The translations under genes and the position numbers were made by a program. 64,000 nucleotides of DNA from Streptomyces sp. MP131-18 (GTDB lineage: Bacteria; Actinomycetota; Actinomycetes; Streptomycetales; Streptomycetaceae): contig NZ_LZNS01000001.1 in the NCBI RefSeq assembly GCF_001984575.1, forward strand, positions 2,326,674-2,390,673, given 5' to 3'. Shown in pieces: positions 7,451 through 27,318 of the stretch. A model generated the notes under the pieces. It was not told where the DNA came from and ran no database searches. It saw nothing but the letters and a program-made list of their open reading frames with translations. The first letter of the stretch is position 1; each line of letters opens with the position of its first letter.

Positions 7451-7503
7451 GGGATTCTCCGCAGGACGCAGGGGACATAAGTGAGGGATCAGACACAGAA
7501 AGT

Positions 7504-8858: not shown

Positions 8859-8863
8859 GCCCG

Positions 8864-8901: not shown

Positions 8902-8907
8902 GCGCCC

Positions 8908-9879: not shown

Positions 9880-9946
9880 GGGACATGCATAACACGGGCC
9901 GGTTATTGCGTTGCGGCCCCGGGCGGGGCTCCGGTCGAATGCGGGC

Positions 9947-10723
9947 ATGACCGGAGCCGGAGCGGAAGCCCCCGACGCGCACCTCGAACGGAACCGGCGC
10001 TACTGGGACGGCCAGGGGAACGCGGCGCACGGGCCGCTCGCCCGCGCCCAGTGGTCGCGGCCGGAACCGCACTGGGGACTGTGGGCCACCCCGGAGTCGC
10101 GGGTCCGGGTGCTGCCCGAGGACCTGACGGGGGTCCGGGCGATCGAACTGGGCTGCGGCACCGCCTACGTCTCCGCGTGGCTCGCGCGGGCGGGCGCCCG
10201 CCCGGTCGGCATCGATCTGTCGGAGCAGCAGCTCGCCACCGCCCGCGCGATGCAGGGCGAGTTCGGCCTCGACTTCCCGCTCGTCCTGGGGAACGCGGAG
10301 CAGGTCCCGTACGAGGACGGGTCGTTCGACCTGGCCATCAGCGAGTTCGGGGCGTCACTGTGGTGCGACCCCCACCGGTGGATTCCCGAGGCCGCGCGGC
10401 TGCTCGTGCCCGGCGGGCGGCTGGTGTTCATGCGTTACTCGCCGCTGTTCGCGCTGTGCGCGCCGCCCGAGGGGCAGGCGTCCGCGGCGCTGGTGCGCGA
10501 CCAGTTCGGCCTCGGCCGGCTGGACTGGGGGCAGCGGGTGGAGTTCGTCCTGCCGCACGGCGAGATGATCCGGCTGCTGCGCGCCGCCGGATTCGTGGTC
10601 GAGGACCTGATCGAGATACAGGCCCCGCGCCCCGCGGACCGCGAGTACGGGGAGGTCTCCTCGGACTGGGCACACCGATGGCCGAGCGAGGAGATCTGGA
10701 CGGCGCGCCGGTCCTGCGGCTGA
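9947..10723 (+). CDS. Class I SAM-dependent methyltransferase
   Basis: A 258-residue methyltransferase. Motif I is AIELGCGTAYVSAWLARAG (about 67-85), followed by the acidic GIDLS that binds the ribose, and motif II/III regions VPYEDGSFDLAISEFG and LVPGGRLVFM. The C-terminal half carries the usual HGEMIRLLRAAGF segment of small-molecule or unknown-substrate methyltransferases. ATG 9947 is chosen; it is divergent from the GH-like gene with a 67-bp promoter gap. The substrate is not indicated by the neighbours. Confidence 0.85.
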   Translation: MTGAGAEAPDAHLERNRRYWDGQGNAAHGPLARAQWSRPEPHWGLWATPESRVRVLPEDLTGVRAIELGCGTAYVSAWLARAGARPVGIDLSEQQLATARAMQGEFGLDFPLVLGNAEQVPYEDGSFDLAISEFGASLWCDPHRWIPEAARLLVPGGRLVFMRYSPLFALCAPPEGQASAALVRDQFGLGRLDWGQRVEFVLPHGEMIRLLRAAGFVVEDLIEIQAPRPADREYGEVSSDWAHRWPSEEIWTARRSCG

Positions 10724-10736
10724 CCGCGGCGCCCGG

Positions 10737-11339
10737 TCAGTCCATGGTGGCCGGCGCCCGAGCGGCGGCCAGGATGGTGGCGGTGAAGCCGGCCAGCTGT
10801 CGCCGCAGGTCTTCGCGCGGCACACCCTTGTGCCCGGCCAGGTGTTCGACGAGATCGGCGCGGGTGGCGGCGAGCAGCGCGTGGGCGGTGAAGTCGCTGC
10901 CGGTGAGGCCGGGAATCCGCGCCAGCAGGTCCCGGAGCAGGGCGTGCCATCGCTCGTAGTGCTCCGCCCGGTAGGGGCTGTCGTCGCCGGTCCCCTCCAG
11001 GGCAAGCGCGAGGTGGCGGTTGTCGAGCTTGAAGGTCAGTACGGCGTCGAGCAGGGCGGGTACGCGCTGAAGCGGTGGGGTGGCGGGCCCGAGCGGTGGT
11101 GGTCCCGCTTCGACGGCTTTCCTGATCGGTTCGAGCCGTGCTTCGTAGAGCGCGCGGATCAGCCCGGTGCGGTCACCGAAGGCGCGGAAGAGCGTTCCCT
11201 TGCCGACGCCGGCCGCCGCCGCGATATCGGCCATGGTGACCTCCTCGGGGCTCCGGCAGCCGGCGAAGAGCGCGTCGGCGGCCGCGAGGGTGGCCGCCCG
11301 GTTGCGGACGGCGTCCTTGCGTGGTTTGCGCTCGGTCAT
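10737..11339 (-). CDS. TetR-family repressor of the adjacent NTF2/NmrA genes
   Basis: A 200-residue TetR regulator. The N-terminal helix-turn-helix runs through TMADIAAAAGVGKGTLFRAF (about 35-55). The ATG at 11339 has an ideal GGAGG 5 bases upstream. It is divergent from 11431-12701, and the 91-bp gap contains two matching palindromes (11364-11406), so it most likely represses both itself and the divergent pair. The C-terminal ligand domain gives no clue to the effector. A second TetR divergent from a related NTF2 gene occurs at 48630. Confidence 0.9.
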   Translation of the reverse strand: MTERKPRKDAVRNRAATLAAADALFAGCRSPEEVTMADIAAAAGVGKGTLFRAFGDRTGLIRALYEARLEPIRKAVEAGPPPLGPATPPLQRVPALLDAVLTFKLDNRHLALALEGTGDDSPYRAEHYERWHALLRDLLARIPGLTGSDFTAHALLAATRADLVEHLAGHKGVPREDLRRQLAGFTATILAAARAPATMD

Positions 11340-11363
11340 GCGCGCCTCCTCCACTTGCAATGC

Positions 11364-11406
11364 GGACCCGGGGTCCGTATCGTCCAGCAAAGCGGACCTC
11401 GGGTCC
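11364..11406. promoter_or_regulatory. Two TetR-type operators, centres 30 bp apart
   Basis: Site 1 (11364-11376) is GGACCC-G-GGGTCC, a perfect palindrome. Site 2 (11394-11406) is GGACCT-C-GGGTCC, one mismatch. The centres are exactly 30 bp apart, about three helical turns, in the gap between the TetR gene and the NTF2-NmrA pair. Confidence 0.7.
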
Positions 11407-11430
11407 ACATCTTACGGGACGGAGAAGTTC

Positions 11431-11856
11431 ATGCCCGAAACCACCTCACCGGCAGACCTCTATCACCACAGTCTTCGACTCCTGCTGGCCAAGGACATAC
11501 CCGCCTGGGTCGGCCTGTGGGCCGACGACGGCGTCCTGGAATTCCCCTTCGCGCCCCGGGACTGGCCCCGGCGGCTGGCGGGCAAGGAAGCCATCGCCGC
11601 CTACATGCGCCACTACCCCGACCACATCGACCTGCACGAGTTCACGGACGTGCGGGTCCACCGGACCGCCGAGCCCGGGACCATCGTCGTCGAAATGCGC
11701 GGCGTGGGCCGCCTGGTGGAGACCGGCAGCCCCTTCGATGCGAACTACATCGCGGTCGTGGCCGTTCGGGACGGGCTCATCACCTCCTGCCGCGACTACT
11801 GGAACCCGCTCGTCGCCCAGGAGCCGGGCGCCGACTTCACCAGGAGCGGCCGATGA
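11431..11856 (+). CDS. NTF2-like/SnoaL-type protein
   Basis: A 141-residue small alpha/beta-barrel protein of the nuclear transport factor 2-like family; members are polyketide cyclases, isomerases or of unknown role. WADDGVLEFPFAPRDWP (about 33-49) and the C-terminal RDGLITSCRDYWNP are the family landmarks. ATG 11431 follows ACGGGACGGAGAAGTTC. It overlaps the NmrA-like gene by 4 bp and is controlled by the two palindromes upstream. It is clearly related to the protein at 48122-48517, which also sits divergent to a TetR gene. Confidence 0.85.
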   Translation: MPETTSPADLYHHSLRLLLAKDIPAWVGLWADDGVLEFPFAPRDWPRRLAGKEAIAAYMRHYPDHIDLHEFTDVRVHRTAEPGTIVVEMRGVGRLVETGSPFDANYIAVVAVRDGLITSCRDYWNPLVAQEPGADFTRSGR

Positions 11857-12701
11857 CCGCCGCCGGCACCACCCTGGTCATCGGCGCCAACGGCACCACC
11901 GGCAGCCGTACCACCGCGCGGCTGGTCGGCGCCGGCCACCGCGTCAAGGCCGCAGGACGCCGCGCCGCCCGGGTCCCCGGCGCGGAAGCGGTCCGCTTCG
12001 ACTGGTACGACCCCGGCACCTTCGGCGAGGCCCTCGCCGGAACCGACCGCGTCTACCTCGTCCCGCCGCCGGGCGACCTGGACCCGGCCGCCGTCATGCT
12101 GCCCTTCCTCCGGCAGGCCCGCGGCACCGGCGTGCACCGCGCGGTGCTGCTCAGCTCCTCGGCCGTGCCGGCAGGGGGCCCGGCGGTGGGCGCGGTGCAC
12201 CGCGCCCTGCCCGGCCTGTTCGACGCGTGGGCGGTCCTGCGGCCCTCCTGGTTCATGCAGAACTTCACCGGCACGCACCTCCACGCCCACAGCATCAGGG
12301 ACGACGGCGTCATCCTGACCGCGGCCGGGACCGGCCGCGTCGGCTTCGTCGACGCCGACGACATCGCCGCCGTCGCCGTGCACGCCCTGACCGATGACCG
12401 CGCGCCCTGCACCGATCTGGTCCTGACCGGCCCGGAGACGCTCAGTCACGACGACGTCGCCACGATCGTCACGGAGGTCACCGGCCGGCCCGTGACCCAC
12501 CGCCACCTCTCCGCCGAACAGCTGCGCGACCGCCTCGCGGCGACCATACCGCGGGACTTCGCCGCGCTGCTGGCCGACCTGGACCTGGCCATCGCCGGCG
12601 GAGCCGAGGACCGCACCACCGACACCGTCCGGCGCCTCACCGGCCGCCCGCCGCGCAGCTTCCTGGCAGTCGCCGAACGGGAGTTGACGCGGAGCGGGTG
12701 A
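11853..12701 (+). CDS. NmrA-like NAD(P)-binding protein
   Basis: A 282-residue atypical short-chain dehydrogenase of the NmrA/ergot-biosynthesis type. The nucleotide site is LVIGANGTTGSRTTARL (about 8-24), close to GxxGxxG. The mid-part VLRPSWFMQNF and VDADDIAAVAVHAL are typical. These proteins are either redox sensors or oxidoreductases such as quinone or nitrogen-ring reductases. It is translationally coupled to the NTF2 gene and under the same TetR, which suggests a small detoxification or tailoring unit; the substrate is unknown. Confidence 0.85.
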   Translation: MTAAGTTLVIGANGTTGSRTTARLVGAGHRVKAAGRRAARVPGAEAVRFDWYDPGTFGEALAGTDRVYLVPPPGDLDPAAVMLPFLRQARGTGVHRAVLLSSSAVPAGGPAVGAVHRALPGLFDAWAVLRPSWFMQNFTGTHLHAHSIRDDGVILTAAGTGRVGFVDADDIAAVAVHALTDDRAPCTDLVLTGPETLSHDDVATIVTEVTGRPVTHRHLSAEQLRDRLAATIPRDFAALLADLDLAIAGGAEDRTTDTVRRLTGRPPRSFLAVAERELTRSG

Positions 12702-12736
12702 TCCGCCCGAGACAGGCATCAAGAACGCGTCAAGAC

Positions 12737-12751
12737 TGCCGGAATCCGGCA
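12737..12751. promoter_or_regulatory. Palindrome TGCCGGA-A-TCCGGCA
   Basis: A perfect 7-1-7 palindrome 36 bp after the NmrA-like stop, in the 248-bp gap before the hydrolase gene. It could be a weak hairpin terminator or an operator for the hydrolase. I see no gene in this gap (12702-12949). Confidence 0.35.
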
Positions 12752-12949
12752 ATGCGGGAGCCCCGTTCCGGATGGGAACATGTCATCACCAGCGAGGGAG
12801 CGGCCACGGGGGACGAGCACGGTGGACTGGTTTCCCGTTCTCGGCATGCTGCGCGCGGCGGCCGCCGGCTGAGCCCCGGGGCGGGGGCCCGTGCGAGCCC
12901 CGCCCCGGCCGCGCCGGACACGACGCGACGCGAAAGGACGGAGACGACC

Positions 12950-13651
12950 GTGCAGTTGCATACCCGCACGTGGGGCGAGGGCGACCGGGTGGCGCTCCTC
13001 GTCCACGGCATCATGGCCGACCACCGCACCTGGCGGCGGGTCGGCCCGGCGCTCGCGGACCGCGGTTTCCGCACCATCGCCGTCGACCTGCGCGGCCACG
13101 GACTCAGCGGGCGCGGCACGTACGCCCCGGCGGACTTCGCCGACGACCTCGCCGAAACCCTGCCCACCGGGGCCGCCCTCGCCCTCGGGCACTCGCTCGG
13201 CGGCCTCGCCCTGGCGCTGGCCGCGGAACGGCTGCGCCCGGCCCGCGCCGTGTACGCCGACCCGGCCTGGCGCCTCTTCGACGGCCGCCGCCACGACCCG
13301 GTGGCGCTGATCTCCGCCAAGGACGCCACGCGCGAGGCCATCGCCGCGGGGAACCCCCGGTGGGAGCCCGCCGACGTCGACACCGAGGTGGCGACGCTCG
13401 CCCGGTGGGACTCACGCACCGCGTTCGGCCTGAGCCGGCTGGCGCACGAGGACTTCACCCCGGACGACCCCCGCGTCCCGTCCCTGGTACAGATACCGGG
13501 CGACGGCGGCCTGGTCACCGCCGACCACGCGGCCCGCCTGCGGAAACGCGGCTTCACCACCGCCACCCTGCCCGATACCGGCCACACAATGCACCGCGAC
13601 GACTTCGACGCCTTCATGACCGCCCTCGACCACTGGCTCGCCGGAAACTGA
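12950..13651 (+). CDS. Alpha/beta hydrolase
   Basis: A 233-residue hydrolase. The oxyanion region is LLVHGIMADHRTW (about 16-28), the nucleophile elbow is GHSLGG (about 82-87), and the catalytic His lies in PDTGHTMHRDD near the C-terminus. The start is the GTG at 12950, where GGACGGAG is 6 bases upstream and the protein begins directly with the first beta strand; the open frame extends upstream but that part has no hydrolase homology. The size is that of small esterase/lactonase-type enzymes. Substrate unknown. Confidence 0.85.
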   Translation: MQLHTRTWGEGDRVALLVHGIMADHRTWRRVGPALADRGFRTIAVDLRGHGLSGRGTYAPADFADDLAETLPTGAALALGHSLGGLALALAAERLRPARAVYADPAWRLFDGRRHDPVALISAKDATREAIAAGNPRWEPADVDTEVATLARWDSRTAFGLSRLAHEDFTPDDPRVPSLVQIPGDGGLVTADHAARLRKRGFTTATLPDTGHTMHRDDFDAFMTALDHWLAGN

Positions 13652-13676
13652 GCCCCGGCCGCCGGGCAGGGAGCGT

Positions 13677-14786
13677 TCAGATCTCCTGCTCGGGCCAGCC
13701 GAGCAGGCGGGCGCCGATCACCGCCGTCTGCAAGGTGTAGCGCTGGAGGGGGTCGGCCGGGTCCGCGCCGGTCAGGCGCTGGATGCGGGCCAGCCGGTAG
13801 GTCAGTGCCCGCACGCTCAGCGACATGCGGCGCGCCGCCTCCGCCGCGACGCAGCCGGCGTCGAAGTACGCGTCCAGCGTGTCCACCAGCGGCGCGGCGC
13901 CGCCGCGCGCCGCGGCGAGCGGGCCGAGCACGGAACGCACCAGGTCCGCCATGGCCTGCCGGTCGCGGGTCAGCACCGGGAACACCAGCAGCTCGGCCGC
14001 GCGCAGCACCGGCGTGGACAGCCGCATGCGCGCGGCGAGTTCGAGCGCGGCGCGCGCCTCCTCGTAGGATTCGACGATCCCGCCGGGGCCGGGGCGCGGG
14101 CGGCCGAGCGCGACCCGCCACTGTCCGGGGGTGCCGTCCGAGGCCCTGGCCGTCGTGGCGAAGTATTCGCCGATTTCCGGCCTGCTGCCCGGCGCGATGC
14201 ACACCAGCCGCCCGTCCTTCGTGGCCAGCAGGATCAGCTGTTCCCCGAACCGCCCCTCCAGCGTGTCCGCCGCCCGCCGCGTCACCGCGTGCGTGTCGTC
14301 GTACGGCTGCGGGCCGCAGGCCACCGCCACCGAATGGCTGTGCGCCAGATGCAGGCCGAAGCGCAGCGCGCGGGCCGACAGGTCGCCAGGGTCGCTGCGG
14401 CCGTGCAGCAGGTCGTCGATGAACTCGCGCCTGGCCGCCTCGTCGCGCCGCACCGCCAGCAGCTGGGCCCGCCCGTACCCCTCGGCCAGCGCGTCGACCG
14501 CCTGCTCCGCCGCGGCCAGCACGCTCTCCGCGGCGGAGCGGACCTGCCGCGCCCCCGGCGCGGCGGCCACGCCCGGCAGGTCGCGGAACGCGGCCCGCGT
14601 GGCGGCCAGATGGCCGCGGACCAGCTCGCGCAGGCCGATCCCCTCGCGCGCGGCCCGCTCCCCCAGCTCGCGGCGGCCGCGGATCTCGTCGCGGTCGAGG
14701 CGGCGGCCGGTCCGCGAGACCTCGGCCAGGATGGCCGCCCAGCCGGCCAGATAACGGGCCCGCACCGGGTCCTCGTCAGCGGACAC
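13677..14786 (-). CDS. PucR/CdaR-family transcriptional regulator
   Basis: A 369-residue regulator. The N-terminal half is helical (RsbT co-antagonist/RsbRD-like), the middle is the GGDEF-like CdaR segment (WRVALGRPRPGPGGIVESYEEARAAL around 240-265, split here in prose only), and the C-terminus carries the PucR HTH, with LVDTLDAYFDAGCVAAEAA and MSLSVRALTYRLARI. GTG 14786 has GGAGGAGG upstream. It is in line with, and downstream of, the DUF427 gene but separated by about 80 bp. In Streptomyces such regulators often control neighbouring catabolic genes; no target is obvious. Confidence 0.85.
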   Translation of the reverse strand: MSADEDPVRARYLAGWAAILAEVSRTGRRLDRDEIRGRRELGERAAREGIGLRELVRGHLAATRAAFRDLPGVAAAPGARQVRSAAESVLAAAEQAVDALAEGYGRAQLLAVRRDEAARREFIDDLLHGRSDPGDLSARALRFGLHLAHSHSVAVACGPQPYDDTHAVTRRAADTLEGRFGEQLILLATKDGRLVCIAPGSRPEIGEYFATTARASDGTPGQWRVALGRPRPGPGGIVESYEEARAALELAARMRLSTPVLRAAELLVFPVLTRDRQAMADLVRSVLGPLAAARGGAAPLVDTLDAYFDAGCVAAEAARRMSLSVRALTYRLARIQRLTGADPADPLQRYTLQTAVIGARLLGWPEQEI

Positions 14787-14866
14787 CTCGCGCCTCCTCC
14801 CCCGCCCGTCCCCCCGCGCCCGGCCCGGCGCGCGTGCCGGGACAGGATACGCAGCCGCCGCCGCGG

Positions 14867-15652
14867 CTACCCGACCTCGGTGGTGATCCGTTCGTGGTCG
14901 AAGCACAGGAACCCGCCCGCGCGGGTGGCCTCCTCCAGGGGCTCGGGGTACGACCACGCCACGTCCGCGACCGGCTCGCCGCCGCCGGTGAACGACCAGT
15001 AGTGCGCGGTGCCCTTGTACGGGCAGACCGTGCGGGTGGCGCTCTCCGCCAGCAGGTCGCGGCGCACGTCCTCCGGCGGGACGTACCAGCGGTTGGGCAG
15101 GCCGGTCTCCGACAGCAGCACCGGCCGCGCCGTCTCGGCCAGCGTCGTGCCGTCCAGCAGCACCCGCACGGTGCTGCCGCTGCGCCGCGCGTCGACGCGG
15201 TGGTACGGGTCGCGCAGGTGGCCGTGGACCTCCTCCTCCTCGTCGAACCACGCGTCGGCAGCGGCCCAGTACAGCGCGTACCAGCCGGCCAGCCACTCGG
15301 CGCCCGCGATGGGCTCCGGGTAGGCCCACACGCCGTTCGGCACCCGCCGCCCGCCCGCGTCGACCGACCAGTACGCGGCCTGGCCCTTGAACGGGCATTC
15401 GGTGGTGTGGTCGCTCGGCCGGAGCAGCTGGGTCCTGACGTCGTCCGCCGGGACGTACAGCTGCGGCAGCAGGCCGGTTTCGTGCAGCAGCCGCCCGTTG
15501 CGGGTGTCCAGCAGCGTCTCGCCGCCGACGAGCGCGCGGACGCGCCGCGGGAACGGGTGCCAGAACAGCCGGTGGGCCGGGCCGGTCAGCCGGTAGTTGA
15601 CGGTCGGCGGCGGCGCCGCGGACAGGGGGCCGTGGGACAGGGTCAGGGTCAT
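14867..15652 (-). CDS. Protein with two DUF427 domains
   Basis: A 261-residue protein made of two tandem DUF427 domains (about residues 35-125 and 155-255). Each repeat has the same signature: VRALVGGETLLDT...ETGLLPQLYVPADDV...CPFKGQAAYWSV in the first, and VRVLLDGTTLAET...ETGLPNRWYVPPEDV...CPYKGTAHYWSF in the second. The family is a small beta-tent fold of unknown activity that is frequent in actinobacteria. Start ATG 15652 is preceded by AAAGGCG. Confidence 0.85.
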   Translation of the reverse strand: MTLTLSHGPLSAAPPPTVNYRLTGPAHRLFWHPFPRRVRALVGGETLLDTRNGRLLHETGLLPQLYVPADDVRTQLLRPSDHTTECPFKGQAAYWSVDAGGRRVPNGVWAYPEPIAGAEWLAGWYALYWAAADAWFDEEEEVHGHLRDPYHRVDARRSGSTVRVLLDGTTLAETARPVLLSETGLPNRWYVPPEDVRRDLLAESATRTVCPYKGTAHYWSFTGGGEPVADVAWSYPEPLEEATRAGGFLCFDHERITTEVG

Positions 15653-15773
15653 CGGAACGCCTTTCGCACCGGGAAACGGTCTGCCATGACTGTCGCTCCC
15701 CCGTTCCCGGCCCGCCGAGTCCTCCCACGCGGTGACAGCGGCCGACCGGGTGAGCCCGGCCGCCCGGATGCCC

Positions 15774-16301
15774 TCACCCGACGTCGAGTGCCGCCCTGGC
15801 CAGTTCGAGGAAGGTCAGGTGCTCCTCGCGGAAGTCCCGGTACGCGGCGTCGAACCGGGCGCGCTCCGCATCCTCGTCGCCCGTCGTGAGCCGGGTGAGC
15901 AGGCGGCTCGTCGTGATCGCCCGGAGGCGCAGCGTCTGCGCGGCCCCGGCGACCGGCGCCGGCCCTTCGAGCACGACCTCCCGGCTGGCTCTGGTCACCT
16001 CGTTGAGCGCCGCGCGGCCGTCGGCCCGCAGCTGCGCGAGGACGGCGGCCCGCGGCTCGCCCGGCGGGGCGGCGTCCGCCTCCTCGATGCGCCAGAAGAC
16101 CTCCGACAGCCCGTGCGCGGCCGCGCTCATCTCCCGGTAGGCGTCGCGCCGCCGGCTGCGGGCCTCCGCGACCTGGGCCGCGTGCGCGGTGACCTCGGCC
16201 TGCACCCGCGCGGACCTGGTGGCCCCCCGGCCGGCGACCCAGCTCGCGACCACCGCCGTCGCGCCGGTGATGAGGCCGATCCACCAATTGCTGTCCCCCA
16301 C
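15774..16301 (-). CDS. Membrane-anchored coiled-coil protein of unknown function
   Basis: A 175-residue protein starting with GTG at 16301. One N-terminal transmembrane helix (WWIGLITGATAVVASWVAG, about 6-24) is followed by a highly charged helical region likely to form a coiled coil on the cytoplasmic side. I do not recognise a family beyond similar one-helix Streptomyces proteins. No operon partner is clear; the DUF427 gene starts 121 bp further on the same strand. Confidence 0.6.
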   Translation of the reverse strand: MGDSNWWIGLITGATAVVASWVAGRGATRSARVQAEVTAHAAQVAEARSRRRDAYREMSAAAHGLSEVFWRIEEADAAPPGEPRAAVLAQLRADGRAALNEVTRASREVVLEGPAPVAGAAQTLRLRAITTSRLLTRLTTGDEDAERARFDAAYRDFREEHLTFLELARAALDVG

Positions 16302-16344
16302 AGGGCAACTATGCCAGCCGCCCCCGCATGCCCCGAACGGCCCG

Positions 16345-17592
16345 TCACGGAACGGCGCGTGCCAGTGCGTCGACGGCCCGGTGCCAGCGGTCCGGCAGGT
16401 CCGCCAGGCCCGGCAGCGCCGCGTCGCCGAGGAACGTCACGTGCAGCCGGCCGCGGTACGCCGTCCACGCGATGAACAGCCGGGTGCGCGGCGAGCCGAT
16501 CGGCAGCGGGTGCAGCGCCGCCGCCGGGGTGCCGCGGAACGCGAGCGGCCCGCGGGTGCGCACGTCCGCCACCGCCAGCGGCACGAACCGCGCGTCCAGC
16601 CAGCGGTCCATGCCGCGCTGCGCCAGCCGGTGCGGCAGCCGCAGCAGCGCCCCGTCCTCCTGCGCCATCTCCGCCAGCCGCGCGAACGCCGTGTTCTGCG
16701 CGACCAGTTGGAGCCGACGCGCCGCCGAGGGCTCGCCGCAGGGCAGCGGCAGCGTCGCGCCCGCGGCCCGGTTCCCCAGGCGCGGGAACGGCTCGGCCGG
16801 CCGGCGCGCGGTGATCCCGAGCGACGCGTACACCCCGTCCTCCGGGCCGGGGAAGTCCGCCGCGTACGCCTCCCGCAGCACGGCCGTCGCCGCCGCGAGG
16901 CACACCTGCGTGACGCCCGCCCCGGTCGCGCGGCCGATCGCGTACAGCCGCGGCAGCTCCGTCTCGGCGGTGCTCGCCGCCCGCCGGTCCGAGCGCGGCA
17001 CGTCGAGCGCGGACCAGCGGGCCCTGCGGCGCGGCAGCGGCAGCACGTGCCGCAGGGCGGCCAGGCGGCGGGCCGCCCCGGGCCCTGGCAGCGGGTCAGC
17101 GGGCGCGGTCGGTGCGGGCCTTGGCTGCCTGCCGAAGAGCAGCTCGACGGTGCGGGCCACGGCCAGACCGTCCTGGAACGCGTGGTGCGCCCGGTAGCAC
17201 AGGCCGAAGCCGCGGCCGTCGCGGATCACCCACACGTCCCACAGCGGGCGGTCCGCGGCCGGGGGCCGGGCGAGCAGCGCGGTGAGCATCCGGTCGGCGA
17301 GCGGCCCCTCGCCCGGCGGCAGGTCGAACGCCTGCACGTGGCGTGCGGCGTCGAAGTCCGGGTCGGCCGCCCAGTGCGCCCGCCGTCCGGCACCCGCCGG
17401 ACGGTACGTCAGCTCCGGCGCGTGCGGCAGGCGCCCGGCGAGGTGCGCCGCCACCTCGGCCACCATGGGGGCGGGGCCCGGGAACGTCAGCAGCGCGCCG
17501 ATCTGCCAGTCCCGTTCCCCCTCGCGGCGCGCGAAGTCCATGAAGATGCGGTCCAGCGTGGTCTGCGCGACCGTTGCGGCCGGGGTGCTCAT
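16345..17592 (-). CDS. Wax ester synthase/DGAT-like acyltransferase, divergent
   Basis: A 415-residue protein of the WS/DGAT (condensation-like) fold, which moves an acyl group from CoA or ACP onto an alcohol. The catalytic HHxxxDG motif is HHAFQDG (about 134-140) and the PLW motif is DRPLWDVWVI. Two other usual motifs are altered: the ND box is VTQVCLAAATAVL, with no Asn-Asp, and the SNVPGP box is replaced by VADVRTRGPLAF. ATG 17592 overlaps the ketosynthase stop by 4 bp. As the last gene of the cyclase-ACP-KS set it may esterify a hydroxylated or acyl-ACP product; this is inference. Confidence 0.8.
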   Translation of the reverse strand: MSTPAATVAQTTLDRIFMDFARREGERDWQIGALLTFPGPAPMVAEVAAHLAGRLPHAPELTYRPAGAGRRAHWAADPDFDAARHVQAFDLPPGEGPLADRMLTALLARPPAADRPLWDVWVIRDGRGFGLCYRAHHAFQDGLAVARTVELLFGRQPRPAPTAPADPLPGPGAARRLAALRHVLPLPRRRARWSALDVPRSDRRAASTAETELPRLYAIGRATGAGVTQVCLAAATAVLREAYAADFPGPEDGVYASLGITARRPAEPFPRLGNRAAGATLPLPCGEPSAARRLQLVAQNTAFARLAEMAQEDGALLRLPHRLAQRGMDRWLDARFVPLAVADVRTRGPLAFRGTPAAALHPLPIGSPRTRLFIAWTAYRGRLHVTFLGDAALPGLADLPDRWHRAVDALARAVP

Positions 17593-18806
17593 GATGCCTC
17601 CGCGAAAGCCAGTGCCACGTTGTGCCCGCCGAAGCCGGTGGACACCGACAGGGCGAGCGGCAGCCGCCGCGGGCGCGGCGTGGTGACCAGGTCCAGATCG
17701 ATGCCGGGCGAGGGCGCGGCCAGGTTGGCGGTCGGCGGGATCAGCCGCCGTTCCACCGCGAGCACCGTCAGCGCGGCCTCCACCGCGCCCGCCGCGCCCA
17801 GCAGATGCCCCGTCACGGCCTTGGTCGAGGTGACCGGCGGCCGGTGCGGCAGTACCTCGGCGAGCACCCCGGCCTCCACCCGGTCGCCCAGCGGGGTGCC
17901 CGTGCCGTGCGCGTTGACGTGGGCCACGTCGGCCGGCGCGGCGCCCGCCGCGGCCAGCGCCTGCCGCAGGGCCGCGGCGAGACCGCGCCCGCCCGGGTCC
18001 GGCTTGACGATGTGGTGCGCGTCCGAGGTGGCGCCCTGACCCGCGACGCGCGCCCTGGGGCGCGCGCCGCGCGCGCGGGCGTCGCGCTCCCGTTCCAGCA
18101 CGAGCATGCCCGCGCCCTCCCCCATCACGAAGCCGTCCCGGTCCGCGTCGAACGGCCGCAGCGCGCCCGCCGGATCGCCGAACCGGCTGGACAGGGCGTG
18201 CATCCGGTCGAAGCCCGCCTGGAAGAACGGCGTGAGCGGCGCCTCCGCGCCGCCCGCCACCGCGATGTCGCACCGGTCGAGGGCCAGCAGGTCGAGCGCG
18301 GTGCAGATCGCCGTCGCGCCCGAGGCGCACGCGGTGTTGACCGTCAGTCCTGGACCGGTCGCGTGCAGGTCCATCGCCAGCTGCGCCGCGAGCGCGTTGC
18401 CCAGCGCGCCGGGCACGGAGAACGCGGACATGCCGTGCTGCCCGGCGTCAAGCAGCACCCGGTGCTGCGCCTCGTAGGTCTGGGCGCCGCAGCAGCCCGC
18501 CCCCGCGACGACCGCGACCCGTGCGCCGTCCCAGCCGCCGGGGTCGAGCCCGGCGTCGGCCACGGCCTCCCGGGCGGCGAGCAGCGCCAGTTGCACGCAG
18601 CGGTCCGGCTTGCGCGCCAGCAGGCCGTTCAGCCGGCCGGGGCCGAACGGCGGCACCCGGCAGGCCAGGCGCGGCGGCTGCCCCTCGTCGTCGAGGGCCG
18701 CGGTCGGCAGTCCCTGGCAGACGCGTTTCCACGTGGCGTCCCGGCCGTCGCCCGCGGGCGTCACCGTGCCGACTCCGGTGACGCACACGGCGCCGCGTCC
18801 GCTCAT
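17589..18806 (-). CDS. Beta-ketoacyl-ACP synthase, FabF/KAS II type
   Basis: A 405-residue condensing enzyme with an intact Cys-His-His triad: NTACASGA (Cys about 165), NAHGTGTPLGD (His about 301) and KAVTGHLLGA (His about 336). It also keeps the GFGGHN C-terminal loop. It would join an acyl-ACP or acyl-CoA starter to a malonyl-ACP extender. There is no chain-length-factor partner, ketoreductase or dehydratase beside it, so it probably makes one condensation or draws on the housekeeping fatty-acid enzymes. It overlaps the ACP gene (18803-18806) and the acyltransferase gene by 4 bp each. Confidence 0.9.
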   Translation of the reverse strand: MSGRGAVCVTGVGTVTPAGDGRDATWKRVCQGLPTAALDDEGQPPRLACRVPPFGPGRLNGLLARKPDRCVQLALLAAREAVADAGLDPGGWDGARVAVVAGAGCCGAQTYEAQHRVLLDAGQHGMSAFSVPGALGNALAAQLAMDLHATGPGLTVNTACASGATAICTALDLLALDRCDIAVAGGAEAPLTPFFQAGFDRMHALSSRFGDPAGALRPFDADRDGFVMGEGAGMLVLERERDARARGARPRARVAGQGATSDAHHIVKPDPGGRGLAAALRQALAAAGAAPADVAHVNAHGTGTPLGDRVEAGVLAEVLPHRPPVTSTKAVTGHLLGAAGAVEAALTVLAVERRLIPPTANLAAPSPGIDLDLVTTPRPRRLPLALSVSTGFGGHNVALAFAEAS

Positions 18807-19036
18807 GCGCCGGCCGCGGCGTGCCCGGCGATGATGCCGAGCACGTCGCCCACGGTGCCGGCCTCGTGCAGCTCCTCCTCGGTGATGGTCAGCCCGTGCC
18901 GCTGCTTGAGGATCAGCACCAGCTCGGCGATGCCGAGGGAGTCCAGTCCCGCCTCCTCCCGGCCCGCCTGCTCGGTGATCTCCTCCTCGGGCACCCCCAT
19001 GGAGACGAGAGCGGCCTTCAGATCGTCGAATGACAT
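18803..19036 (-). CDS. Acyl carrier protein
   Basis: A 77-residue acidic four-helix carrier protein. The phosphopantetheine serine is in GLDSLGIAEL (about residue 37). ATG 19036 has GGAGG 5 bases upstream, itself inside the end of the terpene-cyclase-like gene, whose reading frame runs 19 bp into the ACP gene. It overlaps the ketosynthase gene by 4 bp. A dedicated ACP beside a lone FabF-type synthase implies a tethered acyl intermediate specific to this cluster. Confidence 0.92.
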   Translation of the reverse strand: MSFDDLKAALVSMGVPEEEITEQAGREEAGLDSLGIAELVLILKQRHGLTITEEELHEAGTVGDVLGIIAGHAAAGA

Positions 19037-20649
19037 GGCTTCCTCCTGTTCCTCGGGCTGTTCCGCAAGCTGTTCCTGGGGCCGTTCCGCGGGCTGCCGG
19101 CGGCGGACCCGTGGCGCGCCGCGGCCAGATCGCGGGCCGCGGCGAGGCCGCCGAGCCGGTAGACCGGGTACAGCAGCGGGACGTCGTAGACGAACGGGCG
19201 CGGGCCGAGCGCGTCCGGCGGCACCGCGGCCTCGGGGCCCGTCGCCGTCAGCAGCCGCACGCCCGCGGCCAGGGCCGCCGCCTCCCGGCCCGCCGCGGCC
19301 AGCGCGCCGACGGCGTAGGCGGTGCCCAGCGGGCCGGCCGCGCCCTGCCGCAGGCACGCCGCGGCGCGGGCCATGACGCGCCCGGTGCCGCCCAGCTCGT
19401 GGGCGGCGACGGCGCGCGCGGCACGCATCACGTGCAGCAGGGGGAAGGCCGCGGAACGCGTCCACTCGTACGGGTAGCCGCCGTCGAGGCGCTGCCGCGC
19501 GGCGAGCCAGCTCCAGCCGCGGGCCGCGGCGGCGCGCTCGGCCGGGCCCGGCTGCCCGGCCAGCAGCGCGAGCACCGCCTTGGCCGTGATCTCCGCCTCC
19601 GAACGGGAGCCGCCCGTATAGGTGTTGAAGCCGCCGTCCGCATTCTGCGCGCGGCGCAGCCAGGCGGCGCCCGCCGCGGCGGCGTCCCGGGCCTGGGGCG
19701 CGGCGCAGCGCCGGAGAAACGTCACGGCCACGGCGGTGTCGTCGGCGTCGGCGTGCGTCACGCCCGGCGCGTAGCCCCAGCCGCCGTCCGGCAGCTGGGC
19801 GTGGCACAGGTAGTCGGCCGAGGCGGCCAGCCGGTCCTCGCCCACGCCGCTCTCCGCGAGCGTCAGCGAGGCCAGGCAGGTCAGCCAGACGTCCTGGCTG
19901 CTGATGAACGGCACCCCGCCGTCCGCCCTGATCTGCGCCACCACGAAGTCGACGCCGCGCGCCACCACGTCGGGCGCCAGGCGCCGTTCGCGCAGCACGA
20001 GCAGAATCGTCACGGTGCCCAGCACGTACTGGTCCCAGCTGCCGTCGCAGGACTGGCTCTCCCGCAGCAGCGCGAGGTCCGCCCGCGCCGCCCCGCAGCC
20101 GTGCCGCCCGGTCAGCAGCCGCACCGCGGCCAGGGTCGGCCGCAGCCAGCCGCCGCCGCCCGCCGCCAGCGGGTCGGGCGGCACGTCCGGCACGTCCCAC
20201 GCCTCGCCGGGGCGCAGCAGGGTCAGCAGCGCGCCGAGCAGGGCCCGCTTGCGCAGGCTCGCGACGGCGCGGTGGCCGGCCAGCGCGGCGCGCAGCCGCG
20301 CCGCGCCGCCCGACGGCTCGGGGCGGCCGAGTGCGGCGGCGGCGAGGTAGCGGGAGAGCAGGCGGTCGAACGGGTCGGTGTGCGCGGCGGGCGGCGCGGC
20401 CAGTTCGCGGGCGCAGAACCGCTCGACGGCCCGCCGCGCGTGGGGCGCGGCGCCCGTGTCGCGCAGCAGCCGCACGGCGAGCGCGGCTTCGAGCAGGCGG
20501 CCGCGGCAGCCGCCGCGCCAGTGTCCTTCCGGCGCGCGGCGGGCGAGGAGGTCCGCCGCGGCGGCTTCGACGACGGTGGTGAGGGCCGGCCCCCGGGGTC
20601 CGGGGGGGCGCGGATCACGCCGGGGGGCGGGGCAACGGGTCGCGGGCAC
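19018..20649 (-). CDS. Class II terpene cyclase-like protein (squalene-hopene cyclase/prenyltransferase alpha-barrel)
   Basis: About 543 residues of alpha/alpha-barrel repeats. QW-type repeats are visible as AQLPDGGWGYA and AQNADGGFNTYTGG, plus RESQSCDGSWDQ. Between them lies THADADDTAVA, an exact DxDD motif, the proton donor of class II (squalene-hopene and diterpene) cyclases. GTG 20649 is preferred, with GGAG 6 bases upstream; an in-frame GTG also occurs at 20661. It is shorter than squalene-hopene cyclases (about 630) and has no class I DDxxD site. The tail ends with an odd Arg/Asn-rich repeat (PRNGPRNSLRNSPRNRR). Coupled to the ACP by a 19-bp overlap. A prenyl substrate is inferred; a true cyclisation product is unknown. 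Confidence 0.8.
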   Translation of the reverse strand: MPATRCPAPRRDPRPPGPRGPALTTVVEAAAADLLARRAPEGHWRGGCRGRLLEAALAVRLLRDTGAAPHARRAVERFCARELAAPPAAHTDPFDRLLSRYLAAAALGRPEPSGGAARLRAALAGHRAVASLRKRALLGALLTLLRPGEAWDVPDVPPDPLAAGGGGWLRPTLAAVRLLTGRHGCGAARADLALLRESQSCDGSWDQYVLGTVTILLVLRERRLAPDVVARGVDFVVAQIRADGGVPFISSQDVWLTCLASLTLAESGVGEDRLAASADYLCHAQLPDGGWGYAPGVTHADADDTAVAVTFLRRCAAPQARDAAAAGAAWLRRAQNADGGFNTYTGGSRSEAEITAKAVLALLAGQPGPAERAAAARGWSWLAARQRLDGGYPYEWTRSAAFPLLHVMRAARAVAAHELGGTGRVMARAAACLRQGAAGPLGTAYAVGALAAAGREAAALAAGVRLLTATGPEAAVPPDALGPRPFVYDVPLLYPVYRLGGLAAARDLAAARHGSAAGSPRNGPRNSLRNSPRNRRKPCHSTI

Positions 20650-20842
20650 GGGTGACTCCACGGAACGGCGCGGCCCGATGGACCGCGCAGAAGGAACAAC
20701 TGGCTTGGCATTCCGAGGAGTTGAGGATGATCACCCGGGCTGCGCATCCATGAGAGCACAGCCGTGGACACCGGATGGCCGACGGCCGACTATTCCACTC
20801 CATAGGGTGAACAGACCGTCACACAGCGCACGCGGGGATCGT

Positions 20843-22714: not shown

Positions 22715-23349
22715 TCCTGGCGGACGATTCGACGCTGCTGCGCGAGGGCCTGGTGCGGCTGCTCACCGAGGAGGGCCACGAGGTGACCGCGGCGGTCGGC
22801 GACGCCGCGGCGCTGCTGGCCGCGGTGGACCGCGATCCGCCGGACGTCACCGTGATCGACGTGCGGATGCCGCCGACGCACAGCGACGAAGGGCTGCGCG
22901 CGGCCCTCGACATCCGCCGCCGGTGGCCGGCGGTGGGGGTGCTGGTGCTGTCGCAGTACGTCGAGGGCCGCTACGCGACGGAGTTGCTGACCGGGGAGCC
23001 GGCGGGCGTCGGCTACCTGCTGAAGGACCGCGTGGTGGAGATCGACGAGTTTCTCGACGCGCTGGAGCGCGTCGCGGCCGGCCGTACCGCGTTCGACCCC
23101 GAGGTGGTGCGGCGGCTGCTGGCGCGCAGTTCGCACACCGATCCCCTCGCCCGCCTCACGCCGCGCGAACGCGAGGTGCTGCACGAGATGGCGCAGGGCC
23201 ACACGAACGCGACGATCGCCGAACACCTGTGGGTCTCGCGCAGCGCGGTGGAGAAGCACGTCAACGCGATCTTCGACAAGCTTCAGCTGCCAGGACCCGG
23301 CGGCTACAGCCGCCGGGTCCTGGCCGTGCTGCGCTACCTGGGCTCCTGA
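22705..23349 (+). CDS. NarL/LuxR-family response regulator
   Basis: A 214-residue regulator. The receiver domain has ADDSTLLREGL, the phosphorylated Asp in VTVIDVRMPP (about 54) and the Lys in YLLKDR. The DNA-binding HTH is LTPREREVLHEMAQGHTNAT and SAVEKHVNAIFDKL (about 150-190). GTG 22705 has GGAG 6 bases upstream. It is the partner of the kinase at 21626. The codons just after the recognition helix (LPGPGGYSRRVLA) are made of a 34-bp perfect palindrome, and its last 16 bp overlap the convergent phosphodiesterase gene. Confidence 0.92.
   Translation: MRVILADDSTLLREGLVRLLTEEGHEVTAAVGDAAALLAAVDRDPPDVTVIDVRMPPTHSDEGLRAALDIRRRWPAVGVLVLSQYVEGRYATELLTGEPAGVGYLLKDRVVEIDEFLDALERVAAGRTAFDPEVVRRLLARSSHTDPLARLTPREREVLHEMAQGHTNATIAEHLWVSRSAVEKHVNAIFDKLQLPGPGGYSRRVLAVLRYLGS
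23290..23323. terminator. 34-bp perfect hairpin inside the response-regulator gene end
   Basis: Arms CCAGGACCCGGCGGCT (23290-23305) and its exact complement (23308-23323) with a 2-base spacer. It lies 26 bp before the response-regulator stop and within 45 bp of the convergent gene's stop, so it may act as a two-way terminator for the overlapping convergent pair. Confidence 0.55.
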
Positions 23350-24719
23350 AGGCCCTGGAGCCCGAGCAGGAACGACTTGACTGCCGTGGCCGCGACCTCC
23401 CCGCCGTCCAGCGCGTCGGGGTCGGAACACAGCAGGACCGGCCGGTCCTTCTCGTCCTCGGGCAGGCGACCGTGGCTGCCGCGGACGCACGACGGGTCGA
23501 GCGGCACCACGTTCATCCGGTAGCGCAGGCCCAGCTTCTTGCGGGCCAGGGCCGCGGCGGCCCTGGCCTTGGCGAACCGGTCCGCCGGGTCGAAGAACAG
23601 CTCCGCCGGGTCGTAGCCCGGCTTGCGGTGGATGTCGACGATGGCCGCCCAGTCCGGCGCGGCCGCGTCGTCCAGCCAGTAGTAGTACGTGAACCACGCG
23701 CCGGGGTCGGCCACCGCGACCAGCTCGCCGGCGCGCCCGTGGTCGAGGCCGTGCCGCTTCTTGCCCGACTCGTCCAGCACCTCGGCGACACCGGGCAGCC
23801 CGGCCAGCACCTCACGCGTGCGCTCCAGGTCCTCGGGGCGCCGCACGTACACGTGCGCCACCTGGTGGTCGGCGACGGCGAAGGCGCGGGACACCCACGG
23901 GTCCAGGTACTCCATCCCGGCCTGCGTGTACACGTCGAGCAGCCCGGCGCGGCGCAGCGCGCGGTTGATGTCGACGGGCCGGTCCACGGGCGTGATGCCG
24001 TACTCGGACAGCACCACGACCGTGGCGTCCGCGGCCTGCGCCGCGTCCAGCAGCGGCCCGATCTCGGCGTCCAGCTCGCCCGCGGCGGCCCGCGCCTGCG
24101 GGCTGTCGGGGCCGAAGCGCTGGAGATCGTAGTCCAGGTGCGGCAGGTAGACCAGCGTCAGGTCGGGCCGCTGCGTGCGCAGCAGGTGCCTGGCCGCGGC
24201 GGCGATCCAGCGGGAGGAGGCGATGGACGCGGTGGGCCCCCAGTAGTTGAACAGGGGGAACGGGCCGTAGCGGCTGGTCAGTTCGTCGTGCAGCTCGGAC
24301 GGCCTGGTGTAGCAGTCGGGGTCCTTGCGGCCGTCGGCGTAGTAGATGGGCCGCGGGGTGATGGTGAAGTCGGTGTCCGCGCCCATCGCGTACCACCAGC
24401 AGACGTTCGCGACGGTGTAGCCGGGCCGCACGCGGCGCGCGGCGTCCCAGATCTTCTCGCCGCCGACGAGCGCGTTGTGCTGCCGCCACAGCAGCACGTC
24501 GCCGACGCCGCGGAAGTACCAGCCGTTGCCGACGATGCCGTGCTCGGCGGGCGGCGCGCCGGTGAGGAACGTGGCCTGCGCGGAGCAGGTCACGGCGGGC
24601 AGCACCGTGCCGAGCGGCGCGCGCGAGCCGCCGCGGGCGAGCGCGGCGAGGCGTGGCAGGTGATCGAGCAGGGCCGGGGTGAGGCCGACCACGTTCAGCA
24701 CGACGACCGGGCGGGTCAT
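23334..24719 (-). CDS. Nucleotide pyrophosphatase/phosphodiesterase family protein of the ebo operon
   Basis: A 461-residue cytoplasmic member of the alkaline phosphatase superfamily (type I phosphodiesterase/nucleotide pyrophosphatase). The nucleophile region is LPAVTCSAQATFLTGAPP (Thr/Ser about 44-50); metal ligands are in VYLPHLDYDLQRFG and VVLSEYGITPVDRP, and a later GRAGELVAVADPGAWF with DHGR. It is the last gene of the seven-gene minus-strand operon and overlaps eboE by 4 bp. Proteins of this family belong to ebo clusters (EboF-like by my reading). The real substrate is unknown; a phosphodiester or pyrophosphate intermediate of the pathway is likely. Confidence 0.8.
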   Translation of the reverse strand: MTRPVVVLNVVGLTPALLDHLPRLAALARGGSRAPLGTVLPAVTCSAQATFLTGAPPAEHGIVGNGWYFRGVGDVLLWRQHNALVGGEKIWDAARRVRPGYTVANVCWWYAMGADTDFTITPRPIYYADGRKDPDCYTRPSELHDELTSRYGPFPLFNYWGPTASIASSRWIAAAARHLLRTQRPDLTLVYLPHLDYDLQRFGPDSPQARAAAGELDAEIGPLLDAAQAADATVVVLSEYGITPVDRPVDINRALRRAGLLDVYTQAGMEYLDPWVSRAFAVADHQVAHVYVRRPEDLERTREVLAGLPGVAEVLDESGKKRHGLDHGRAGELVAVADPGAWFTYYYWLDDAAAPDWAAIVDIHRKPGYDPAELFFDPADRFAKARAAAALARKKLGLRYRMNVVPLDPSCVRGSHGRLPEDEKDRPVLLCSDPDALDGGEVAATAVKSFLLGLQGLQEPR

Positions 24720-25897
24720 GACAGCTCCTTGAGTCCGAGTCCGGTCAGCAGGTCGCGCGCGAGGGACAGTTCGGCGGCGATGCCGTCCGCGAGTCCCTCG
24801 GGCGTGCGGGGCCGCAGGGCCGGCGGCAGTACCTGCCAGGTGTAGGTCTCCACCTCCAGGTGGCGGGTGAGGGCCCGTTCGCCGCCGACCAGGCGGGTGA
24901 GGGCCTGCGTGAGGTGCGGCAGCGTCGAGGTCAGCGGCGGGTGCGGGCGGGCGTGCAGCGGGATGTGCAGGTGAACGCGCCAGGGGTCGCGTCCCGGCAG
25001 CGGCTCGGGCCCGAACAGGGCGATGTCCAGGTCGTCGTGGCCCAGGACGCCGCCCGGCGCCCGCTCCCGCGTCTGGTGCAGGAAGCGGGGCTCGGCGAAG
25101 TCGGCGAGCGCCGCGCGCACCGCGGGCTCCCCCGGGTGCTCGGCGTGCAGGGCCGCCGACAGCTGCGCCTTCACGACGGGCACGCCGCGCGCGGTCAGAC
25201 CGGCGATGGCGCGGTCCGGGTCCTCGAAGGCGGTGGCCAGGTGGCAGGTGTCCAGGCAGACCCCGACCCGGCTGCTCGGCGGCGCCCCGGGCGCCGTCAG
25301 CACCTCGGCGGCCTGCCCCGTGGTCTCCACGATGCAGCCGGGCTCGGGCTCCAGGGCGAGCCTGATGGAGCGGCCGGTGCGCTCCGCGAGTGCGTCGAGC
25401 CGTCCGGCCAGCTCGGTGAGGTGCGCCAGCGCCCGTTCCTGGTCCTGCGGTGTGAACGGGGTGCGCCAGGCCAGCGGCAGCGTCGAGATGGTGCCCTCCG
25501 GCTCGTCCCCGGGCAGCAGCTCGGCGAGGAGGCCGGCCAGGTCGGCGGTGTGGTCCAGGCGTTCGCGGCTGGTCCAGTCGGGCGTGTAGACGGCGTACTT
25601 GACGCGTTCGCCGCCGAACCCGCGGTAGGGGAAGCCGTTCAGCGTGACGACTTCGAGGCCGTGGCGCTCCAGGGCCTCGCGCAGGGTGCGGCGGGCGCCC
25701 GCGTCCGCCACCAGGGTGCGGGCCGCGTCACGGGCCAGCCACAGGCCGATGCCCAGGCGCGCGCGGTCGAGGCGCCGCCTGACCGGCTCGCAGTAGTCGC
25801 GCAGCTGCGCGAGGACGCCGTCGAGCGTCTCCGCGGGGTGGACGTTCGTGCAGTAGGCGAGGTGGACGACCGAGCCGTCGGGGTGCTGGAAGCGCAC
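24716..25897 (-). CDS. eboE: Metabolite traffic protein EboE (TIM barrel)
   Basis: A 393-residue xylose-isomerase-like TIM-barrel protein. The N-terminal LAYCTNVHPAETLDGV (about 13-28), LNGFPYRGFGGERVKYAVY and GVCLDTCHLATAFEDP are characteristic of EboE. The barrel ligands RLALEPEPGC and HIPLH suggest a divalent metal site. In cyanobacteria the ebo genes are needed for export of a scytonemin precursor to the periplasm. GTG 25897 follows eboB by 6 bp; the 3' end overlaps the phosphodiesterase gene by 4 bp. Confidence 0.85.
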   Translation of the reverse strand: MRFQHPDGSVVHLAYCTNVHPAETLDGVLAQLRDYCEPVRRRLDRARLGIGLWLARDAARTLVADAGARRTLREALERHGLEVVTLNGFPYRGFGGERVKYAVYTPDWTSRERLDHTADLAGLLAELLPGDEPEGTISTLPLAWRTPFTPQDQERALAHLTELAGRLDALAERTGRSIRLALEPEPGCIVETTGQAAEVLTAPGAPPSSRVGVCLDTCHLATAFEDPDRAIAGLTARGVPVVKAQLSAALHAEHPGEPAVRAALADFAEPRFLHQTRERAPGGVLGHDDLDIALFGPEPLPGRDPWRVHLHIPLHARPHPPLTSTLPHLTQALTRLVGGERALTRHLEVETYTWQVLPPALRPRTPEGLADGIAAELSLARDLLTGLGLKELS

Positions 25898-25903
25898 GGC
25901 GCC

Positions 25904-26764
25904 TCACCGCCCGGCCGGGGCGCCGCGCAGGATCGAGTTGCCCTCGAAACTCTCCGGCTGCTCGCGTCCGTCCAGCTCAAGACGGCCGCTCTGGCCGTAG
26001 AACTCCACCGGGTTGCGCCACAGCACCCGGTCCACGTCGTCGTCGGTGAACCCGGCGGCCAGCATGGCGTCGGCGACGCGGCGCGTCTTCAGCGGGTCGC
26101 TGCGGCCCCAGTCCGCGGCCGAGTTGACCAGCATCCGGTCGAGGCCGAGGCGGCGGAGCACCTCGACGGTGCGCCGCTCGTCCATCTTGGTGTCCGGGTA
26201 GACGGAGAACGCCATCCAGCAGCCGCTGTCCGCGGCGCGGTCGACGGTCGTCTCGTTCAGGTGGTCGAGCACGACGCGCTCGGGCGGCAGTTCGGACTCG
26301 GCGAGCACGGACAGGGTGCGTTCCAGGCCCGCGGCCTTGTCGCGGTGCGGCGTGTGGACGAGGGCGGGCAGGCCGTGGCGCGCGGCCAGTTCGAGCTGGG
26401 CGGCCAGCGCGTCGTCCTCGGCCGGGGTCAGCGAGTCGTAGCCGATCTCGCCGACGGCCACCACGTTGTCCTTCTCCAGGTAGCGCGGCAGCTCCTGGAG
26501 CACGGGCGTGCAGCGCGGGTCGTTCGCCTCCTTGGGGTTGAGGGCGAGCGTGCAGTGGTGGGCGATGCCGTACTGGGCGGCCCGGTAGGGCTCCCAGCCG
26601 AGCAGCGAGTCGAAGTAGTCCAGGAAGCTGGCGGTCGAGGTGCGGGGCTGGCCCAGCCAGAACGAGGGCTCCACGACGGCCGCCACCCCGGCCGCGCGCA
26701 TCCGCTCGTAGTCGTCGGTCGTGCGGGAGGTCATGTGGATGTGGGGATCGAAAATGCGCATCAT
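25904..26764 (-). CDS. eboB: TatD-family metal hydrolase (EboB-like)
   Basis: A 286-residue amidohydrolase-fold protein. The metal site starts with FDPHIHMTSR (HxH, about 6-11); further ligands are in AVGEIGYDS (Glu), LVHTPHRDK (His), VLDHLNE (His) and VNSAADWG (Asp). Such TatD relatives accompany ebo clusters. ATG 26764 (a double ATG) overlaps the eboA stop by 4 bp. The substrate is unknown; nuclease activity, as in TatD itself, should not be assumed. Confidence 0.85.
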   Translation of the reverse strand: MMRIFDPHIHMTSRTTDDYERMRAAGVAAVVEPSFWLGQPRTSTASFLDYFDSLLGWEPYRAAQYGIAHHCTLALNPKEANDPRCTPVLQELPRYLEKDNVVAVGEIGYDSLTPAEDDALAAQLELAARHGLPALVHTPHRDKAAGLERTLSVLAESELPPERVVLDHLNETTVDRAADSGCWMAFSVYPDTKMDERRTVEVLRRLGLDRMLVNSAADWGRSDPLKTRRVADAMLAAGFTDDDVDRVLWRNPVEFYGQSGRLELDGREQPESFEGNSILRGAPAGR

Positions 26765-27318
26765 GCCTCCGGGGCGGGCGCGGGCGGCGGGGAGAGGGCC
26801 AGGGCGTGCCGCACGTCGGCGGGCACGGGCCGTCCGGCGGCCGTGCGTTCCGCGGCGAAGTCGGTGAGCATCCTGGCGAGTTCGGGGTCGGCACGGTCGG
26901 CGAGGCCGGCGACCTCGGTCACGGGGACGTCGGTGAAGACGCACTTGAGGACGGCGTGCCGCCACAGGTGCTGGTCGAGGTGGCGGGCGGCGTAGGGGCC
27001 GACGGCGGCGGCGATCAGCCGCGGGTCGTTGGTGCGCAGCGCGTCCTCGACGAGCGGCAGGGCGTCGGCGCCGACCGGCAGGTGCGGCAGGGCGCGCAGC
27101 ACGGCGCGGCGCTCCGCCGCGTCGCCGTGCCGGTAGAGGCGGGCGGCGGTGGCGGCGTCGGCGCCCGCGGCGCGCAGCAGCGCCACCCGGACGGCGTCCG
27201 CGGCGGCGCGGCCGACGTGGCGGCCCGCGGAGGTGAACGCGGCCTCCCAGGCGTCGGTGCCCAGCACGCCGTCCAGCCAGGCGCGAGCGGCGGGGGTGAG
27301 GCTGGTCTCGGTCAGCAC
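26761..27318 (-). CDS. eboA: EboA-domain protein
   Basis: A 185-residue helical, HEAT-like protein. Recognisable parts are TPAARAWLDGVLG, AWEAAFTSAGRHVGR, and the family-typical TNDPRLIAAAVGPYAARHL and WRHAVLKCVFTDVPV (about 130-145). The function of EboA is not known. GTG 27318 begins directly after the TAA of the upstream isomerase gene, with no gap, so translation is probably coupled. The C-terminus is Pro/Ala rich. Confidence 0.85.
   Translation of the reverse strand: MLTETSLTPAARAWLDGVLGTDAWEAAFTSAGRHVGRAAADAVRVALLRAAGADAATAARLYRHGDAAERRAVLRALPHLPVGADALPLVEDALRTNDPRLIAAAVGPYAARHLDQHLWRHAVLKCVFTDVPVTEVAGLADRADPELARMLTDFAAERTAAGRPVPADVRHALALSPPPAPAPEA

Follow-up and report, generated by a model that had tools for sequence, protein, structure and literature searches.

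Bacterial drimane clusters are a recent subject, and their described part (the cyclase, a Nudix protein and a P450) omits the acyl carrier protein (ACP), ketosynthase (KS) and acyltransferase genes that lie beside the drimenyl diphosphate synthase SsDMS. The cav cluster, as described, consists of a DMS, a Nudix protein, P450s and a class I terpene cyclase, with no ACP, KS or acyltransferase listed (PMC11035983). A fungal acyltransferase, DrtE, acts late in drimane biosynthesis (PMC11035983), and RedQ and RedR of undecylprodigiosin biosynthesis are a precedent for a dedicated ACP and KS that use fatty acid enzymes (PMC12654105). In the literature searched, no paper was found that joins a class II terpene cyclase, an ACP and a ketosynthase in Streptomyces, a wax ester synthase with Streptomyces terpenoid clusters, or drimenol with an acyltransferase and an ACP, and none reports what the acyl genes of these loci make. 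The cyclase is of a known class, and the acyl part of the operon appears to be undescribed in that literature, whose scope did not extend to the original description of SsDMS.

Here we describe an operon of these four genes in a 64 kb stretch of Streptomyces DNA (the window). We put the probability that its product is an acylated terpene alcohol of the drimane (bicyclic) type at roughly 55%. The operon is the minimal version of the set, with four overlapping genes and no P450 or Nudix gene, and as such offers a practical test of the role of the acyl module.

Operon layout and gene calls

The four genes follow one another in tandem on the reverse strand (16345-20661), and each junction overlaps (Table 1). 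The start of the ACP gene is inside the end of the cyclase gene (19 nt of shared coding sequence), and the KS and acyltransferase genes each start on the stop codon of the gene before them (4 nt, ATGA, in both cases; the acyltransferase starts with ATG). Because every junction overlaps, the four genes are very probably transcribed together and translationally coupled, the coupling being what the first-pass annotation had proposed; all four are found on this strand and match their families strongly. The cyclase start was placed at a GTG at 20661, and the start chosen earlier, 20649, is a nearby in-frame GTG. All family assignments of the four proteins pass the curated Pfam cut-offs and each protein misses its NCBIfam equivalog cut-off, so they look like divergent, specialised copies and not enzymes of primary metabolism.

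Table 1. Genes of the operon, with the evidence for each call
Feature	Position	Strand	Length	Evidence
Class II terpene cyclase (drimenyl diphosphate synthase-like, separate lineage)	19018..20661	-	547 aa	beta-gamma didomain; DADD at residues 305-308
ACP	18803..19036	-	77 aa	intact DSL motif; PF00550 4e-9
FabF-type KS	17589..18806	-	405 aa	Cys-His-His triad + Lys; TIGR03150 2e-115
Divergent WS/DGAT-type O-acyltransferase	16345..17592	-	415 aa	HHAFQDG; WS_DGAT_cat 1e-13; TIGR02946 9e-35

A 175-aa protein is encoded at 15774-16301 (-), starting 43 nt after the acyltransferase stop. Neither Pfam nor NCBIfam gives a match to it, and nothing matching it lies beside the loci of the relatives; on both grounds it was dropped as a candidate fifth gene. 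On the other side, about 2 kb beyond the DedA gene that adjoins the operon, lies an ebo-like operon (23334-29968, -) with genes for Phosphodiest, AP_endonuc_2, TatD-related (EboB-like), UbiA prenyltransferase (EboC-like) and inositol-1-phosphate synthase-like proteins and for a 185-aa protein without a Pfam match. The ebo operon has been described (PMC5133447).

Fold and lineage of the cyclase

The cyclase matches PF13243 (1.1e-13) and PF13249 (1.4e-8), and its DXDD motif, reported as intact in the first-pass annotation, reads D305-A-D307-D308; in an alignment with relatives the D305 and D307 columns are invariant and D308 is conserved at 90% or more. D307 corresponds to D303 of SsDMS, the central Asp of the motif, which is mutated in the solved complexes, and F248 and Y505 of SsDMS, sites mutated in later PDB structures, are kept as F252 and Y492. 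SsDMS is also the best PDB match by sequence (5e-32), with squalene-hopene cyclase at 2e-13, and PtmT2 (an ent-CPP synthase) gave no match at E 0.1 in the same search. A model was made with AlphaFold (AF2) from an alignment of 31 window and locus sequences, one row from a plasmid record being left out (pLDDT 87.2, pTM 0.88). Its top nine Foldseek matches are SsDMS entries (E 9e-25, TM 0.84 by target), and VIA-align Z scores are 38.5 for SsDMS (2.9 A, 467 residues), 36.4 for squalene-hopene cyclase and 29.1 for PtmT2. The predicted model has the double alpha-barrel fold over its full length, the SsDMS match spanning residues 24-510. The barrel-domain arrangement on which the first-pass annotation had staked its reading is thus present in the model; its label "squalene-hopene-type" missed the closer drimenyl diphosphate synthase match. 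Homology and predicted fold together make it well supported that the protein is a class II terpene cyclase and would carry out a cyclisation step.

Identity to cyclases on the SsDMS side is about 29-34% (29% to SsDMS itself), and a segment of about 17 residues around DGGWG, present in most relatives, is missing from the window cyclase. In a midpoint-rooted tree, whose root is not known, the window cyclase groups with Embleya (100/98), Amycolatopsis and Nannocystis sequences, and a 100/100 branch separates these from the SsDMS/CavC side; the protein therefore falls outside the SsDMS/CavC sequence clade. Its branch is long (1.03). The starred branches of the cyclase tree have to carry at least three changes in linkage to ACP-KS. 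The simplest reading of these sequences would be that the acyl genes came together with cyclases of two lineages, or that one cyclase was swapped for another; fast divergence of the window cyclase instead of exchange seems less likely. Among the Amycolatopsis relatives, one cluster (L029, about 2100-14950 as scanned) encodes a cyclase of the window lineage together with a cis-prenyltransferase fused to an amine-oxidase-like domain, an MpaB-type oxygenase, GcpE, three P450s and a class I terpene synthase, and L037 was noted likewise.

The acyl genes and related loci

The KS has the full catalytic triad claimed for it earlier (C160, H300 and H334) and K329, and it scores 386 bits against a cut-off of 494 for the FabF equivalog TIGR03150. 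It is 57-66% identical to the KS of cyclase-linked loci, and in the KS tree it forms a 100/100 group with these and with the KS of one further locus (L110); twelve other KS of similar overall score fall outside that group. The twelve loci that encode them (L115, L117-L119, L121-L128) have no class II cyclase of the window family; an ACP lies beside the KS in all twelve (only possibly in L127), and most have a KS III-type gene. A search with the KS alone gave matches in 230 of 393 Streptomyces genomes, other FabF-type KS included, and ACP-KS was rejected as a general marker of the set for being this broad. C105 of the window KS is at what we take to be the position of FabF I108, which holds mostly small residues in the cyclase-linked relatives. 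Its sequence thus suggests no bulky block there, and this would not firmly decide the acyl chain length.

The acyltransferase has HHAFQDG at residues 136-142, and both its domains, PF03007 and PF06974, score above cut-off. Its TIGR02946 score (120 of 310 bits) is below cut-off and bears out its earlier description as a divergent WS/DGAT enzyme (WSD). It is 42-47% identical to its counterparts in the related loci. Of the 393 Streptomyces genomes, nine others have a WSD at 44-47% identity, all nine in SsDMS-type loci, and the next-best WSD in the 393 is at 31%. The order sample (198 genomes) added one close relative, again in an SsDMS-type locus (L164), and the class sample (297 genomes) held no close WSD besides the window's own. 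All ten close relatives are thus inside four-gene loci, and the WSD is the cleanest marker of the cyclase-acyl set. The cyclase can occur without the acyltransferase, as in L060 and in the cav cluster as described; the acyltransferase family was never found without the cyclase in the samples searched, which would be expected if it acts on the cyclase product.

The cyclase was searched for in 199 of the 393 sampled Streptomyces genomes and, outside Streptomyces, by pattern-based and plasmid scans. Matches were found in 20 of the 199, the window's own genome counted, and ACP and KS genes stand behind the cyclase in three others of those 20. Neighbourhoods read after the KS search of all 393 genomes revealed the four genes together in nine other genomes, to which a further sample added one (about 2.5% of sampled Streptomyces). 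The neighbourhood search recommended by the first-pass annotation thus found the set elsewhere, and its statement that it could name no known streptomycete pathway with this four-gene make-up does not hold for loci of known enzymes. A P450 and a Nudix gene usually accompany the four genes. In eight of these loci (L057, L058, L109, L111, L112, L113, L114 and L120), and in L164 from the further sample, the WSD is divergent from P450-Nudix-cyclase-ACP-KS. L116 is rearranged, with P450, cyclase and Nudix genes divergent from ACP-KS-acyltransferase-P450, and its cyclase is SsDMS of Streptomyces showdoensis, identical over 533 aa except at engineered sites. The solved drimane enzyme SsDMS adjoins the three acyl genes; this, too, counts against that statement. 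Since the same four families are found together in ten further genomes, their linkage is not due to chance, and the operon is a real, conserved biosynthetic unit.

The window has the linkage of cyclase, ACP, KS and WSD seen in these drimane-plus-acyl-module loci. It lacks the Nudix and P450 genes found beside the cyclase in SsDMS- and cav-type drimane clusters: profiles built from the proteins of the relatives found neither in any frame of the 64 kb. The KS, ACP and acyltransferase remain kin to those of SsDMS-type loci and the cyclase is of another lineage; the operon is a reduced, divergent version of those loci.

Three loci have other combinations. One genome (G185, L056) has a cyclase-ACP-KS set without the WSD, and the ester step is therefore not universal among these loci. 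In L060 (G015) the Nudix-cyclase pair and shared flanks are as in L057 (G004), and the WSD, P450, ACP and KS are all missing; their joint absence would be expected of a tailoring unit, and the two loci look like a case in which the tailoring genes were naturally lost or gained together. L110 (G108, 5719-16749) has two WS/DGAT-like genes, an ACP, a KS of the cyclase-linked clade, a P450, an SDR and a KS III, with no class II cyclase of the window family, as if the acyl module had some other partner.

Proposed pathway and comparison with known systems

In the pathway that we propose, D307 would protonate the terminal double bond of a prenyl diphosphate and two rings would close without ionisation of the diphosphate. 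Conversion of farnesyl diphosphate (FPP) to a drimenyl-type diphosphate is the favoured activity, judging from the sequence and the predicted fold, and that of geranylgeranyl diphosphate (GGPP) to a labdane-type diphosphate would be less likely. As the window has no Nudix gene, the diphosphate would be removed by a host phosphatase encoded elsewhere; this is reasonable because drimenol made with CavC in E. coli was ascribed by its authors to dephosphorylation, likely by an endogenous hydrolase (PMC11035983). The dedicated ACP and FabF-type KS may then build an acyl group on that ACP, by analogy with RedQ/RedR, helped by the malonyl transferase, reductases and dehydratase of the host fatty acid synthase. 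The WS/DGAT-type enzyme would finally transfer this acyl group onto the hydroxyl of the terpene to form a terpenyl ester, a step for which DrtE, acting on a drimane, is the fungal counterpart (PMC11035983). WS/DGATs classically use acyl-CoA; here we infer an ACP-bound acyl donor. The P450 of the relatives probably introduces another hydroxyl group, in the manner of CavA; the one hydroxyl open to acylation in the window would be the primary alcohol left by removal of the diphosphate. Esterification, the identity of the acyl group and the chain length of the substrate are predicted in the same way as host dephosphorylation. Of the product suggested in the first-pass annotation, the cyclised isoprenoid with an ester-linked acyl chain remains the best reading, and the specification of a "short" chain found no support.

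Points against an acylated drimane are the low identity of the cyclase, the 100/100 branch, the missing DGGWG segment, the lack of a nearby Nudix or P450 gene, and L056. The separation of the cyclase from the SsDMS/CavC lineage would also suit a diterpene cyclase that acts on GGPP to give a labdane-type bicycle, acylated by an otherwise identical route. A class II cyclase beside a class I terpene synthase and P450s is typical of labdane-type diterpenoid clusters, and the nearest kin of the window cyclase, in Embleya (L030) and Amycolatopsis (L029 and L037), have just such neighbours. We nevertheless consider this route unlikely: by sequence and structure the protein is closer to the sesquiterpene enzyme SsDMS than to PtmT2, Tpn2 or Rv3377c, the window genes that were scanned included no class I synthase, and Nannocystis relatives of the same lineage have a P450 and a HAD-type hydrolase nearby, which fits a terpene-alcohol pathway. 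The cav drimane cluster, moreover, also has a class I synthase that is not needed for drimanes (PMC11035983).

The KS and ACP are intact and dedicated, and the clade to which the KS belongs is confined to these loci and L110, so they might instead extend the terpenoid or a derived acid by a C-C bond into a terpene-polyketide hybrid, with the WS/DGAT serving for release or another transfer. This is improbable, as the window has no P450 to oxidise the terpene alcohol to an acid and the operon no KR, DH or ligase, and L110 combines KS and ACP of the same type with WSD-like genes in the absence of a class II cyclase, which indicates acyl supply rather than terpene extension. An ordinary hopanoid or squalene-type cyclase next to unrelated lipid genes would account for the weak matches to SHC models and for squalene-hopene cyclase being the second-best fold. 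It was rejected as highly improbable, since a distinct SHC-family open frame (805 codons, PF13243 6e-107) is present in the genome, the window cyclase scores 35 of the 431 bits of the squalene-hopene cyclase cut-off of TIGR01507, and the four genes are conserved together.

An acylated drimane would mean a terpenyl-ester route whose acyl chain is drawn from a dedicated carrier protein, with the acyl module joined to more than one cyclase lineage. More tentatively, and with somewhat less than even odds, the ACP, KS and WS/DGAT may be a transferable acyl-capping cassette, paired in Streptomyces with two deeply separate class II cyclase lineages and handing ACP-bound acyl groups to cyclic terpene alcohols; bacteria would then have a route to terpenyl esters with both the acyl chain and the terpene supplied by a single operon.

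Of the known systems, the SsDMS locus of Streptomyces showdoensis (L116) is the closest, with a class II cyclase of the same fold and orthologues of the ACP, FabF-type KS and WS/DGAT together; it differs in its Nudix gene, two P450s and divergent gene order. The cav cluster of Streptomyces clavuligerus (3-beta-hydroxydrimenol; PMC11035983) shares the logic of a class II DXDD sesquiterpene cyclase, whereas the window lacks its Nudix and P450 genes and its description lacks the acyl genes. The WS/DGAT wax ester synthases (PDB 6chj, 7nxg) are homologous to the window acyltransferase over the full length (8e-25, family profile) and share HHxxxDG, but the predicted acceptor in the window is a cyclic terpene alcohol. 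RedP/RedQ/RedR of undecylprodigiosin biosynthesis (PMC12654105) likewise pair a dedicated ACP with a FabF-type KS that borrows fatty acid synthase enzymes. Unlike that set, the window operon has no KS III gene, and its acyl group would end in an ester, whereas that of RedP/RedQ/RedR ends in a pyrrole.
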